Source of the DNA: Pontibacter indicus
GTDB lineage: Bacteria; Bacteroidota; Bacteroidia; Cytophagales; Hymenobacteraceae
Assembly (NCBI RefSeq): GCF_900156345.1
Contig: NZ_FTPP01000001.1
Location: forward strand, 1,550,001-1,614,000
DNA: 64,000 nt
Reading direction: 5' to 3'
Made by a program: the position numbers and the translations under genes. The notes beneath the pieces were generated by a model. It searched no databases, was not told the origin of the DNA, and worked only from the letters and a program-made list of their open reading frames with translations. Shown in pieces: positions 26,081 through 29,751 of this stretch. Each line of letters begins with the position of its first letter. Positions within the stretch are counted from its first letter, which is position 1.

Positions 26081-27637
26081 ATGGAGCAACTGAGCTCAAA
26101 GATTTATAAGAAAGAATTTGTAGAGGCCTTTGCCGGCGACGATAGCGGCACCCTCACGCCCCGCCAGACACCGGGCGTGTTTTACAGCAAAGCAAAGCCC
26201 ACTCCAGTGGAGAAAGTAACGCTCCTGGCCTGGTCTGAGGAACTCGCAAAGGAGCTGGGCATCGCCCGCCCGACAGAGCAGCAGGACGTCGACATTCTGG
26301 GTGGCAACCGCGTGACCGACAGCATGTACCCCTATGCCGCCTGCTATGCCGGGCACCAGTTCGGCAACTGGGCTGGGCAACTGGGTGACGGCCGTGCCAT
26401 TACCCTGGGTGAGTGGGAAGCACCTGATGGCAAAACCTGGGAGCTGCAGCTAAAAGGCGCCGGGCTTACCCCCTACTCCCGCCGCGCCGACGGCCGTGCC
26501 GTGCTGCGCTCTTCGGTGCGCGAGTACCTGATGAGCGAAGCCATGCATTATTTAGGTATACCGACTACCCGTGCGCTCAGCCTGGTGAGTACCGGCGAGC
26601 CCGTGCTGCGCGACATGTTCTACAATGGCAACGCCGCCTACGAGCCGGGTGCCATCGTGATGCGGGTAGCCCCGAGTTTCCTGCGCTTCGGCAACTTCGA
26701 GATGCTCAACGCCCGCAAGGAAGTCGACAACCTGCGCCAACTGGTAGACTGGACCATCAGCCGCTATTATCCGCACATCACCGGCGAGAACAAGGTAATT
26801 GATTGGTTCAAGGAAGTGGTGGACCGCACCGCCCGTCTAATGGTAGAATGGATGCGGGTGGGTTTTGTGCATGGCGTAATGAATACCGACAACATGTCTA
26901 TCCTGGGGCTGACCATCGACTACGGCCCCTACTCCTTCGTCGACAATTACGACCCGAACTTCACGCCCAACACCACCGACCTGCCCGGCAGACGTTACGC
27001 CTTCGGCAAACAGCCTTCCATCGGCTACTGGAACCTGGGTGCCCTGGCGGGTGCTTTGCTCCCACTGGCCGACAAAGACCAACTGGTGGCTACACTCGAA
27101 ACCTTCAAAGACGTCTACTGGACGGAATACTACGCCATGATGGGCCGCAAACTGGGCCTCGACCAGGTATCACAACTCGACCGCGACCTGATCAGTCAGT
27201 TTGAGAAAACACTGGCCGACATCCAACCCGACATGACCATTTTCTACCAGCTGCTCATCGACCTGCCGCTGTCTGTAGAAAATGAAGATGAAGTGGCCGA
27301 GCATTTCCAGAAGGCTTTGTATGATGACCTGACACCGGAGCAGAAAACCGCGCTCTATACCTTGATCAGCCATTACCTGGAGCGACTGAACACGAACAAG
27401 ATCAAGCGCTCGGCCTCGCAGGATATGATGCGCAAAGCCAACCCACGCTTTGTGCTCCGCAACTACCTGCTGCACCAGGCCATTGAGGGGCTGGAGAAAG
27501 GCGATGATGCTTTATTAGTGAAGCTACAGGAAGCGATCAAAGAACCGTACTCAAATAAATTCGACGAGTTCTTTCAGACTCGTCCGGGCTGGGCGAGTGA
27601 GAAGGCGGGCTGCTCGATGCTGTCTTGTAGTTCGTAA
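26081..27637 (+). CDS. selO: Protein adenylyltransferase SelO
   Basis: This 518-residue protein is the pseudokinase SelO (YdiU/UPF0061), which transfers AMP from ATP to protein hydroxyl groups and is linked to redox stress. Visible signatures are YAACYAGHQFGNWAGQLGDGRA, the KGAGLTPYSRRADGRAVLRSS region, and the inverted-kinase catalytic segment VHGVMNTDNMSILGLTIDYGP. The C-terminus ends GCSMLSCSS: a Cys stands near the end in the place where eukaryotic SelO has selenocysteine. Length is typical. Monocistronic in appearance. Confidence 0.95.
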   Translation: MEQLSSKIYKKEFVEAFAGDDSGTLTPRQTPGVFYSKAKPTPVEKVTLLAWSEELAKELGIARPTEQQDVDILGGNRVTDSMYPYAACYAGHQFGNWAGQLGDGRAITLGEWEAPDGKTWELQLKGAGLTPYSRRADGRAVLRSSVREYLMSEAMHYLGIPTTRALSLVSTGEPVLRDMFYNGNAAYEPGAIVMRVAPSFLRFGNFEMLNARKEVDNLRQLVDWTISRYYPHITGENKVIDWFKEVVDRTARLMVEWMRVGFVHGVMNTDNMSILGLTIDYGPYSFVDNYDPNFTPNTTDLPGRRYAFGKQPSIGYWNLGALAGALLPLADKDQLVATLETFKDVYWTEYYAMMGRKLGLDQVSQLDRDLISQFEKTLADIQPDMTIFYQLLIDLPLSVENEDEVAEHFQKALYDDLTPEQKTALYTLISHYLERLNTNKIKRSASQDMMRKANPRFVLRNYLLHQAIEGLEKGDDALLVKLQEAIKEPYSNKFDEFFQTRPGWASEKAGCSMLSCSS

Positions 27638-27764: not shown

Positions 27765-28016
27765 ATGAAATGCAAGGCACTTGGTTTTATCATCCTAATG
27801 GCGGCTTCGCTTGGGTTAACCTCCTGTGATAAGGACTGTGAAACTACCATCGCAGCCTGCATGGAACGGCCACCGACCGATGAACTTTGCCAGGCTTCCT
27901 TTACAAGATGGTTTTACAACGAGGGTAAGAAAAAGTGCGAGGAAATCAGGTATAGCGGGTGCACACTGAAAGGCTTTGAAACGGTGCAGGAGTGTGAGCA
28001 GTGCAAGTGTGGGTGA
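27765..28016 (+). CDS. Lipoprotein with a Kunitz/BPTI-type inhibitor domain
   Basis: An 83-residue precursor: lipoprotein signal with lipobox LTSC (Cys21), then a single Kunitz-type domain. Its cysteines are at 32, 42, 58, 66, 77 and 80/82; the spacings 10-16-8-11-3 closely follow bovine trypsin inhibitor (9-16-8-13-4), and the hallmark RWFYN (48-52) and YSGC (63-66) are both present. The residue after the second Cys, the P1 position that sets specificity, is Gln43, not the Lys/Arg of trypsin inhibitors. Extra Cys25 and one of Cys80/82 are unassigned. Membrane-anchored protease inhibition is inferred. Kunitz domains are uncommon in bacteria. It stands 127 bp after selO. Confidence 0.85.
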   Translation: MKCKALGFIILMAASLGLTSCDKDCETTIAACMERPPTDELCQASFTRWFYNEGKKKCEEIRYSGCTLKGFETVQECEQCKCG

Positions 28017-28039: not shown

Positions 28040-28770
28040 AGTGGACCTGATTGCAAGTAAAGATTTCGCGCACTACTGTCATCCCGTGCCCCCTTCTTTA
28101 TCAAAGGTTCCTATCCCTAAGAGGGACTTTGCCTTCTACTACTATCCTATCTGTCATCCTGAAAGGATCTTGGTCGAAGGGAGGTCAGGCAGTTGCTATA
28201 ACACACCCTTTCCCCTCTCAAGAGGGGATTTCGATCACTGGAAATTCACAGGTATAAGCATTGTAGCAAAGGTATAGCTATACCGGGTCCACCCACCCCT
28301 GGCCCCTCCTTGTCTGAGGCGGGGAATTTGGAACTGCTATTTGTTAGGTATAAGCGCTATAGTATATGCATACCTGTGCACGATTAACATCCCCCTGCCC
28401 CCTTCGAAGGGGGACTTTCTGTAGCTGCCAATTTACAGGTATAAGTTCTGTAGCTTCCTGCACTGTCACACATCACTGGCAGGTATTGCAAGACTAACTT
28501 GCACGCTTACGATAAAATAATTAGCCGTGCCAGGTGCACAAACGACGATTTTGTGTTTGAGCGGTCAGCGAGTTTAAAATCGTCTTGATTTTTTTGCTTA
28601 CTTTTTTCATCAAGGAAAAAAGTGAGTGCCCGCCGCACAGGCGAAGCTATGAAACAATACTGGTTGCTATACCCAAAGCATTTACTACGCCAAGTATAGG
28701 TATACTAGGCAGGAGGCCGCACAATAGTAGTCACGAGCGTGAACGCTCGCGCCATATCTAACCCGTCAGG
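28040..28770. repeat. Composite intergenic repeat region R2
   Basis: About 730 bp without a gene, colinear with the region at 2395-3134. Shared blocks, in the same order, include CTCTCAAGAGGGGA-like stems (about 28213-28228), a CCTTGTCTGAGGCGGGG stem (28307-28323), the palindrome CCCCCTTCGAAGGGGG (28396-28411), the TTTTTTGCTTACTTTTTT inverted repeat (about 28584-28622), the GTGAGTGCCCGCCGCACAGG block (28622-28641) and GAGCGTGAACGCTC (28735-28748). GGTATA boxes are dense here. It appears to be a dispersed, multi-part repeat. Confidence 0.8.
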
Positions 28771-28818: not shown

Positions 28819-29751
28819 CTAAAAACTCTTCCGATGCATCCTGACCGGAAACAACCGGTAATCCATTAAACTCACCGCATATGGAAACCCACGCCAGTGT
28901 ACAATCGGCACATGGCGGGCTGGACTTGGGCCCTTGGTGTCAGGTATAGCCAGCATCGTATTGCCAATGTAACTCAGTTCCCCTTTTTCAATCGCTAATT
29001 TACTCGCGACATGCTGCAGAAAAACCTCTTTGTCGGCATCCGACGATGTAAAGGAAATCTCGCGTGACATGGTGCCCCCCCCTTCCAATTCCGGAGAATA
29101 AAACACGCGGGAATAGGTATCGATGGCGACAACCGGAACGGCCAGCGTGGGTACTTTGGCCTGCATCACGTCTGGTGGAGCAATGGGTGCCTGGTTGGCA
29201 ACGCGCTTCACCATTTCCGTTACTTTCTGGGCGGTATAGATGCCTTTGATCGTTTCGGACTCAATGCGCTTGAGCACCTGCTCCACCTTCGACTCGAAAG
29301 GCTGACCGGGGTTGACCGGCTGGGGCTGCGGTGCTGGCCGCTGGGGTGCCTGCCCAACCGGACGTGGTTTCTGCACCTGCGAAAGCGGCTTTGGCTTCTC
29401 ACGCTCCGGTATGTAGCTGTCTTTGATGTGCCGCTCGTGCACGTTGATCACCGTGGTAAAGGTATTAATGAAGTGTTCCGTGTTCTGCACATGAAACAGC
29501 TCCAGTTCCTGTATGCGCTTGCGCGTCACCAAGTAGTTGTGCACCAGTTTCGTCTTCTCGAAAACGGCCAGCAGCTTTTCGGCATGTGGTGTGTGCTGGT
29601 AGCGTTCGTAAAGTTTGTGCAGAGCGTTGAGCCTGGCATTGGAAGCCCGGATATACTGCATGGCACGGGCATCGGCGGCACCAGGGTGCGCCACTACCGT
29701 GCGGGTGTTCTCCTGCCCCATTCCGAAAAGTGATCGAAAAAAACCCATCAT
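28819..29751 (-). CDS. Hypothetical protein of the TelA operon (310 aa)
   Basis: I do not recognise this 310-residue protein. It has a helical N-terminal part (30-120, ASNARLNALHKLYERYQHTP), a Pro/Gln-rich linker of about 45 residues (125-168, many PQP and RP repeats), then a helix and an alpha/beta C-terminal part (AVPVVAIDTYSRVFYSP; AIPDTKGPSPARHVPIVHW). No signal peptide. It is the last gene of a four-gene operon, overlapping the previous 62-residue gene as ATGA, so it probably works with TelA in envelope or toxic-ion stress; this role is inferred from position only. Confidence 0.8.
   Translation of the reverse strand: MMGFFRSLFGMGQENTRTVVAHPGAADARAMQYIRASNARLNALHKLYERYQHTPHAEKLLAVFEKTKLVHNYLVTRKRIQELELFHVQNTEHFINTFTTVINVHERHIKDSYIPEREKPKPLSQVQKPRPVGQAPQRPAPQPQPVNPGQPFESKVEQVLKRIESETIKGIYTAQKVTEMVKRVANQAPIAPPDVMQAKVPTLAVPVVAIDTYSRVFYSPELEGGGTMSREISFTSSDADKEVFLQHVASKLAIEKGELSYIGNTMLAIPDTKGPSPARHVPIVHWRGFPYAVSLMDYRLFPVRMHRKSF

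Follow-up and report, generated by a model that had tools for sequence, protein, structure and literature searches.

A predicted envelope lipoprotein of Pontibacter indicus belongs to a distinct Bacteroidota subfamily of Kunitz-type domains

The window analyzed here, a stretch of 64,000 nucleotides from the Pontibacter indicus genome, contains an intact open reading frame on the plus strand (27765–28016, stop included; ATG to TGA) that encodes a precursor of 83 residues. The gene is located between a SelO-like gene (26081–27637, plus strand; a tentative name) and a convergent gene, p310 (28819–29751, minus strand), whose 310-residue product has no Pfam match at E 0.01. The precursor is composed of a 20-residue signal peptide ending in the lipobox residues L-T-S (27765–27824), Cys21, the predicted site of lipidation, followed by D-K-D at positions +2 to +4 (27825–27836), a short linker with an additional cysteine, Cys25 (27837–27839), and a Kunitz domain that starts at Cys32 and closes at Cys80 or Cys82 (residues 32–82; 27858–28010). 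Cysteines occupy positions 21, 25, 32, 42, 58, 66, 77, 80, and 82, and the RWFYN and YSGC motifs correspond to residues 48–52 and 63–66, respectively.

Kunitz domains (PF00014; MEROPS inhibitor family I2) are generally regarded as a family of animal proteins. The original prediction had assigned the protein to this family, and PF00014 was the sole Pfam match, with a score of 31.8 bits (gathering cut-off, 21; E = 1.7e-7) over residues 32–79 and profile positions 2–50 of 53. An NCBIfam search of the 83-residue protein gave no match, and the PF00014 profile hit one site only in the whole genome. Among solved structures, in which eukaryotic relatives were sought, the best sequence match was tissue factor pathway inhibitor (TFPI; E = 3.2e-10), with SmCI and boophilin next in rank. 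An AlphaFold2 model calculated from a 67-row alignment (66 homologs from named contigs) had a pLDDT of 82.1 and a pTM of 0.65, and its elements (H10–13, E25–32, E37–44, and H54–60) follow the Kunitz order of helix, hairpin, and helix. The 50 Foldseek matches listed, out of 202, were Kunitz proteins with a probability of 1.00 and weak E values (best, 2.8e-3; none below 0.001). The 50 entries listed by a second structural aligner were also Kunitz proteins; the best, a BPTI variant, gave a Z of 6.1 (2.6 Å over 55 residues), a value that agrees with the sequence evidence for the fold, although a Z below 8 can reflect a common arrangement and is weak alone. The Kunitz proteins in these listings include a few venom proteins. 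By its profile score and predicted fold, the protein is a member of the Kunitz/BPTI family.

The six core cysteines of the family (5, 14, 30, 38, 51, and 55 in BPTI), which pair as 5–55, 14–38, and 30–51 in Kunitz domains, are present as Cys32, Cys42, Cys58, Cys66, Cys77, and Cys80 (or Cys82). The close fit to the Kunitz cysteine spacing that had been noted earlier holds for the central part, where C14-x15-C30-x7-C38 is exact, but not for the flanking loops or the C-terminal end: nine residues separate C5 from C14 (eight in BPTI), ten separate C38 from C51 (twelve in BPTI), and the domain ends in C-x2-C-x-C rather than C-x3-C. The second loop is shortened to Cys66-T-L-K-G ahead of Phe71 (27960–27974), which leaves four residues between the equivalents of Cys38 and Phe45, compared with six in BPTI. 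Because the Pfam cut-off is passed, we read the divergent loop spacing as a variant of the Kunitz framework.

This variant recurs in other bacteria. Named bacterial and archaeal contigs were scanned once for sequence patterns, with an alignment of this kind of domain (termed type B in this analysis) as the query. The scan found 72 loci, 70 of type B and two from Myxococcota that encode several domains. Nearly all of the 70 are labeled Bacteroidota, as are all of the best 20. One type-B locus (L084) is labeled Sphingomonadales, possibly through a binning error, since the protein it encodes is very similar to the one from L092, a Bacteroidetes metagenome-assembled genome. Anatomical features were counted in 68 domains, namely, those of the window and of 67 loci, leaving out the two Myxococcota loci (L133 and L134), two loci with a broken frame (L076 and L127), and one at a contig edge (L123). 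The spacings C14-x15-C30, C30-x7-C38, and C38-x10-C51 were found in 68 of 68 domains, C5-x9-C14 in 60, and the CxxCxC end in 61. The consensus resembles P-P-T-x-E-x-C-Q-A-Y-F-x-R-W-F-Y and Y-S-G-C-S-x-K-G-F. In the 67 alignment rows, the first five core cysteines, Cys14 among them, and the equivalent of Cys80 are invariant, some of these having belonged to the search patterns; a tryptophan replacing Tyr21 and a Gly-Phe pair ahead of the last strand also occur in every row, partly through the choice of pattern. The column that most likely corresponds to Gly12 holds Asp in 24 rows, Gly in 19, and Asn in 18. Cys25 and Cys82 occur together in 59 rows (Cys25 alone in five, Cys82 alone in one, and neither in two), and this co-occurrence makes a fourth disulfide between them plausible, though not general. 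Type B shares with BPTI, TFPI domain 2, SmCI, and boophilin the six core cysteines, the C14-x15-C30-x7-C38 framework, the R-W/Y-F-Y-N core, the alanine at P1′, and Gly37, in addition to the profile score and predicted fold. In contrast to BPTI-type domains, it has C5-x9-C14, C38-x10-C51, a C-x2-C-x-C end, and a lipoprotein signal, its commonest P1 residue is glutamine, and it lacks a fixed Gly12 and the Asn-Asn ahead of the Phe45 equivalent. On its spacing, type B is a distinct subfamily of Kunitz domains.

The lipobox rule places the lipidated cysteine of the window protein at position 21, within LTSC (residues 18–21), and the same sequence or LASC is found in the two Pontibacter orthologs described below. 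The signal peptide and lipobox support the earlier assignment of the protein as a bacterial lipoprotein, with predicted lipidation at Cys21. By a crude rule, a lipobox is found in 64 of the 68 type-B domains, the rule misplacing the cysteine in several of the 64 rows. The surface-export signal of Capnocytophaga lipoproteins is described as C-X-K-(D/E)2 (PMC5080379). The N-terminus of the predicted mature protein, C-D-K-D-C-E, agrees with this consensus, which is that of Capnocytophaga and may not be that of Pontibacter, at Lys +3 and Asp +4 and fits it only in part because +5 is Cys. On the basis of this partial fit, an outward-facing display of the lipoprotein is possible.

Orthologs with 78% and 81% identity to the window protein are encoded in Pontibacter sp. 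FD36 (L064) and Pontibacter virosus (L063) at the same site between the SelO-like gene and the convergent p310 gene. In the three pairwise comparisons among the three species, dN/dS of the mature region was 0.05–0.07 at a dS of 1.1–2.0, and that of the signal peptide was 0.10–0.52. The 83-residue protein is under purifying selection. One might suspect a chance or decaying frame from the facts that type B occurs in only three of 50 Pontibacter genomes and that SelO and p310 are adjacent without the inhibitor gene in four relatives, but the low dN/dS of the mature region, the frame kept intact in three species, and the conservation across the whole type-B family refute this explanation, which retains virtually no probability.

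The gene is patchily distributed. PF00014 matches were found in four of 50 Pontibacter genomes (three type B and one type A, the second Bacteroidota kind, described below), in 23 of 291 genomes at the level of the order (threshold, E 0.01; 20 exceeded the cut-off), in 31 of 395 genomes of the class at E 0.001, and in six of 395 genomes drawn from the phylum at E 0.001; these samples overlap. A type-B profile applied to 200 genomes of the family scored above 100 bits in the three Pontibacter genomes only and below 55 bits in 15 others, of which the five that were read (L008, L009, L011, L012, and L018) were all type A. Pontibacter is therefore most likely a recipient of type B from another Bacteroidota lineage. 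In a tree of 30 of the 50 SelO matches, which came from 49 of the 50 Pontibacter genomes, the three type-B carriers are scattered within one group of 11 species, and, among the same 30 loci, in four genomes (G051, G016, G010, and G009) SelO and p310 lie side by side with no Kunitz match above chance between them. This distribution would result either from a single gain followed by recurrent losses or from several gains at the same place.

The DNA around the gene has a peculiarity of its own. The word CAGGTATAGC is massively over-represented in this 4.57 Mb genome, with 768 forward and 704 reverse copies, compared with 2 and 2 copies of the same word read backwards. Its count on both strands is 559–1472 in eight of 25 Pontibacter genomes, 25–105 in the other 17, and at most 35 in 14 genomes of other genera. 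Related words occur throughout the window (e.g., 28249–28258 and 2926–2935), where GGTATA has 86 copies on one strand and 87 on the other, and CAGGTATAAG has 29 near-copies, 16 of them inside open reading frames of at least 200 residues. The non-coding stretch past the gene (28206–28454) contains direct repeats of 62 nucleotides (two copies, 71%) and 34 nucleotides (three copies, 62–71%), and these repeats hold the variants CAGGTATAAG and TAGGTATAAG. The word looks like an uptake signal or a HIP1-like iterated word and merits a study of its own.

Two origins had been offered for the domain: transfer from a eukaryote and an ancient bacterial lineage. The phylogenetic tree (62 rows and 51 columns, including 19 type-A and 31 of the 68 type-B sequences, the window among them; L014 and L109 were dropped because the domain pattern failed) is weakly resolved and its bootstrap had not settled. 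In this tree, the type-B sequences form a single long-stemmed clade (100/99) and the type-A sequences a separate one (98/95), and the window protein clusters with the two other Pontibacter sequences (100/95). The data neither favor nor reject the grouping of types A and B in a single clade (p-AU, 0.216). Of the two origins, an ancient bacterial lineage is the better fit for type B, since its members cluster together on a long branch and have loop lengths of their own. That this lineage recently acquired the domain horizontally from a eukaryote is not supported by the comparison, whose eukaryotic side consisted of solved structures, leaving room for a close eukaryotic relative, and we regard it as very improbable. 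The Kunitz family is mostly animal. Such a transfer has also been proposed for an Acinetobacter protein by its authors (PMC11511053). The capture is nevertheless hard to reconcile with the long-stemmed type-B clade, with the exclusively Bacteroidota labels of the best 20 loci, with the bacterial lipobox in most members (64/68), and with the observation that none of the ten animal domains compared has the type-B spacing. A viral origin was also considered and rejected: the one match on a viral contig (L006) consisted of ten residues within an unrelated longer frame and was taken as chance. A tblastn search of phage and plasmid collections with the mature protein of the window gave no match at E 0.01.

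Other bacterial Kunitz domains differ from type B. Type A, likewise a label coined here, comprises small Bacteroidota lipoproteins (e.g., L002, L004, L009, and L017) that resemble the window protein in their lipobox-like start, single Kunitz domain, and often a CxC end. They are unlike it in having C5-x8-C14 with Gly12 kept, a spacing nearer to that of animal domains, a GGVVPF-like second loop, and a P1 residue that is mostly F, Y, L, M, or N among those read. In the Pontibacter genome G002, the type-A frame (L003, minus strand, 1432–1668) diverges past GVVPF, with a profile match reaching position 37 of 53, and the gene is probably truncated or frame-shifted. The two Myxococcota loci (L133:448–1773 and L134:4053–5513) encode a multi-domain protein in which a single Kunitz domain with animal-type spacing accompanies repeats that appear Kazal-like by eye. 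In three further loci (L104:4575–5165, L111:4677–5222, and L059 on the minus strand), the Kunitz domain follows other N-terminal lipoprotein regions, and in L111 and L059 it is the only part that Pfam names. Our literature search on Kunitz proteins, mostly outside subscription journals, found no title or abstract describing such lipoproteins in Bacteroidota and, as the only paper on a bacterial Kunitz protein, the report on Acinetobacter baumannii F6W77, which states that bacteria have yielded few Kunitz peptides so far (PMC11511053). Like the window protein, the F6W77 protein is reported from a bacterium, and some of its domains are reported to be anticoagulant; unlike the window protein, it has five domains, a classical framework, and a 15-residue signal peptide (PMC11511053). 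The passages on this protein mention no lipid anchor and name one accession, which may be bacterial or a contaminant.

In the reactive loop, Gln43 (27891–27893) immediately follows Cys42, the equivalent of Cys14 of BPTI, and is therefore P1 by alignment, as the original prediction had it, with Ala44 at P1′. Glutamine is also the commonest P1 residue of type B, at 27 of 68, at a position that is otherwise variable (Ala, 12; Leu, 9; Met, 9; then D, E, T, N, S, R, and H). The P1′ residue is alanine in 67 of the 68 domains. Because the first search pattern of the scan demanded this alanine, we also counted it in the 42 loci bearing the second pattern, which does not contain it, and found it in 41; correspondingly, the Gly-Cys pair at positions 37–38 is present in all 47 loci bearing the first pattern, which lacks that pair. 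The two Myxococcota loci are included here. Canonical Kunitz inhibition depends on the P1′ alanine, Gly37, and the 14–38 disulfide. The retention of these three elements, combined with a varying P1 residue and a lipid anchor, leads us to favor, with some confidence, an inhibitor that is anchored in the envelope and blocks a trypsin-fold protease in the canonical manner. In this proposal, the general secretory pathway would export the precursor, Cys21 would be lipidated, and the protein would sit on the outer membrane, possibly facing outward, and present its single Kunitz domain there. Upon contact with a trypsin-fold (S1) protease, the loop around Cys42-Gln43-Ala44 would occupy the active site, where Gln43 would serve as P1, and would remain bound. 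A protease of foreign origin, released by competitors or predators or present in the surroundings, would be a more likely target than a dedicated partner of the cell itself. The variable P1 may be compared with that of inhibitors that follow different targets, and the patchy presence in Pontibacter suits an accessory role.

The loop may not have the canonical shape, since the first loop is longer by one residue than in BPTI, Gly12 is not fixed, and two residues are missing from the second loop. These altered loop lengths, together with the unconstrained P1, would also be expected of a Kunitz scaffold that is no longer inhibitory and binds another envelope or extracellular ligand, and animal Kunitz proteins that have lost inhibition and acquired new functions have been described (PMC5107962). 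A scaffold of this kind would have no obvious need for the P1′ alanine (41/42) and Gly37 (47/47), and we consider this explanation possible but rather doubtful.

Kunitz inhibitors classically target S1 serine proteases, and a search for a cognate protease of the proposed inhibitor, with PF00089 and PF13365 and with neighboring genes judged mostly by eye, found none. No protease was recognized beside the window gene between the SelO-like gene and p310. The putative M28 enzyme that had been suggested as a cognate partner is located a few genes away in a block conserved in the three Pontibacter species. This block includes p310, which keeps its place next to SelO in the four genomes that lack the inhibitor gene. 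The enzyme would be a metallopeptidase, provided that its first naming was right, and was rejected as a target on this mismatch of mechanism. Trypsin-fold matches in the genome number three, all HtrA-like by size and by a match to Trypsin_2 only. Such matches are present in all 50 Pontibacter genomes with or without the inhibitor, and a dedicated trypsin-fold target of the cell's own was rejected on these grounds. The neighborhoods of the 70 type-B loci were clustered (592 open reading frames of at least 80 residues), and the listing was judged by eye; no protease was recognized among the recurrent neighbor clusters listed, many of which are common to close relatives only.

Two kinds of neighbor did recur. 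DUF6970 (PF22311) lipoprotein genes, three of them checked with Pfam, are located 9–322 bp from type-B genes in eight of the 70 loci, from two lineages, downstream in L121, L122, L129, L130, and L131 and upstream in L078, L086, and L087. An ECF sigma factor gene is found downstream on the same strand in eight of the 70 loci, in five of which it is the next open reading frame at a distance of 31–148 bp; none was found upstream or on the opposite strand among the 592 flanking frames. One of these sigma genes was checked with Pfam, and the gene following it has only a below-cut-off match to a beta-barrel. In Taibaiella sp. KBW10 (L078:4696–5524), three tandem type-B Kunitz lipoprotein genes directly precede the ECF sigma gene and its follower. 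Both kinds of neighbor are leads for regulation, though they are missing at most loci. The constant orientation of the sigma genes, and the fact that the trypsin-fold matches of this genome are three HtrA-like proteins, would accord with a lipoprotein that restrains an endogenous HtrA-family protease and thereby acts on envelope signaling through ECF sigma and anti-sigma factors. We consider this unlikely for the following reasons. At 62 of the 70 loci, no sigma gene was seen in the flanks (up to 5 kb, some ended by the contig), with the reservation that distant sigmas can be missed by a sigma model derived from these same eight loci. The eight loci represent about five lineages, and their number is a raw count, uncorrected for the genomic background. 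The window copy lies behind the SelO-like gene with no sigma gene seen alongside, and the trypsin-fold matches occur in 50 of 50 Pontibacter genomes, type B in three. A bolder version, to which we give a still smaller chance, is that type B arose in bacteria as a Kunitz branch whose remodeled binding surface holds in check the envelope proteases that govern ECF sigma signaling, and that it spread independently as an accessory inhibitor in lineages such as Pontibacter. If this were true, a Kunitz inhibitor would be part of regulated proteolysis in bacteria.

A widespread Bacteroidota branch of the Kunitz family, with loop lengths of its own and glutamine as the commonest P1 residue, provides a natural set of variants for the specificity of these inhibitors and an opportunity to examine how foreign proteases are dealt with at the bacterial envelope.
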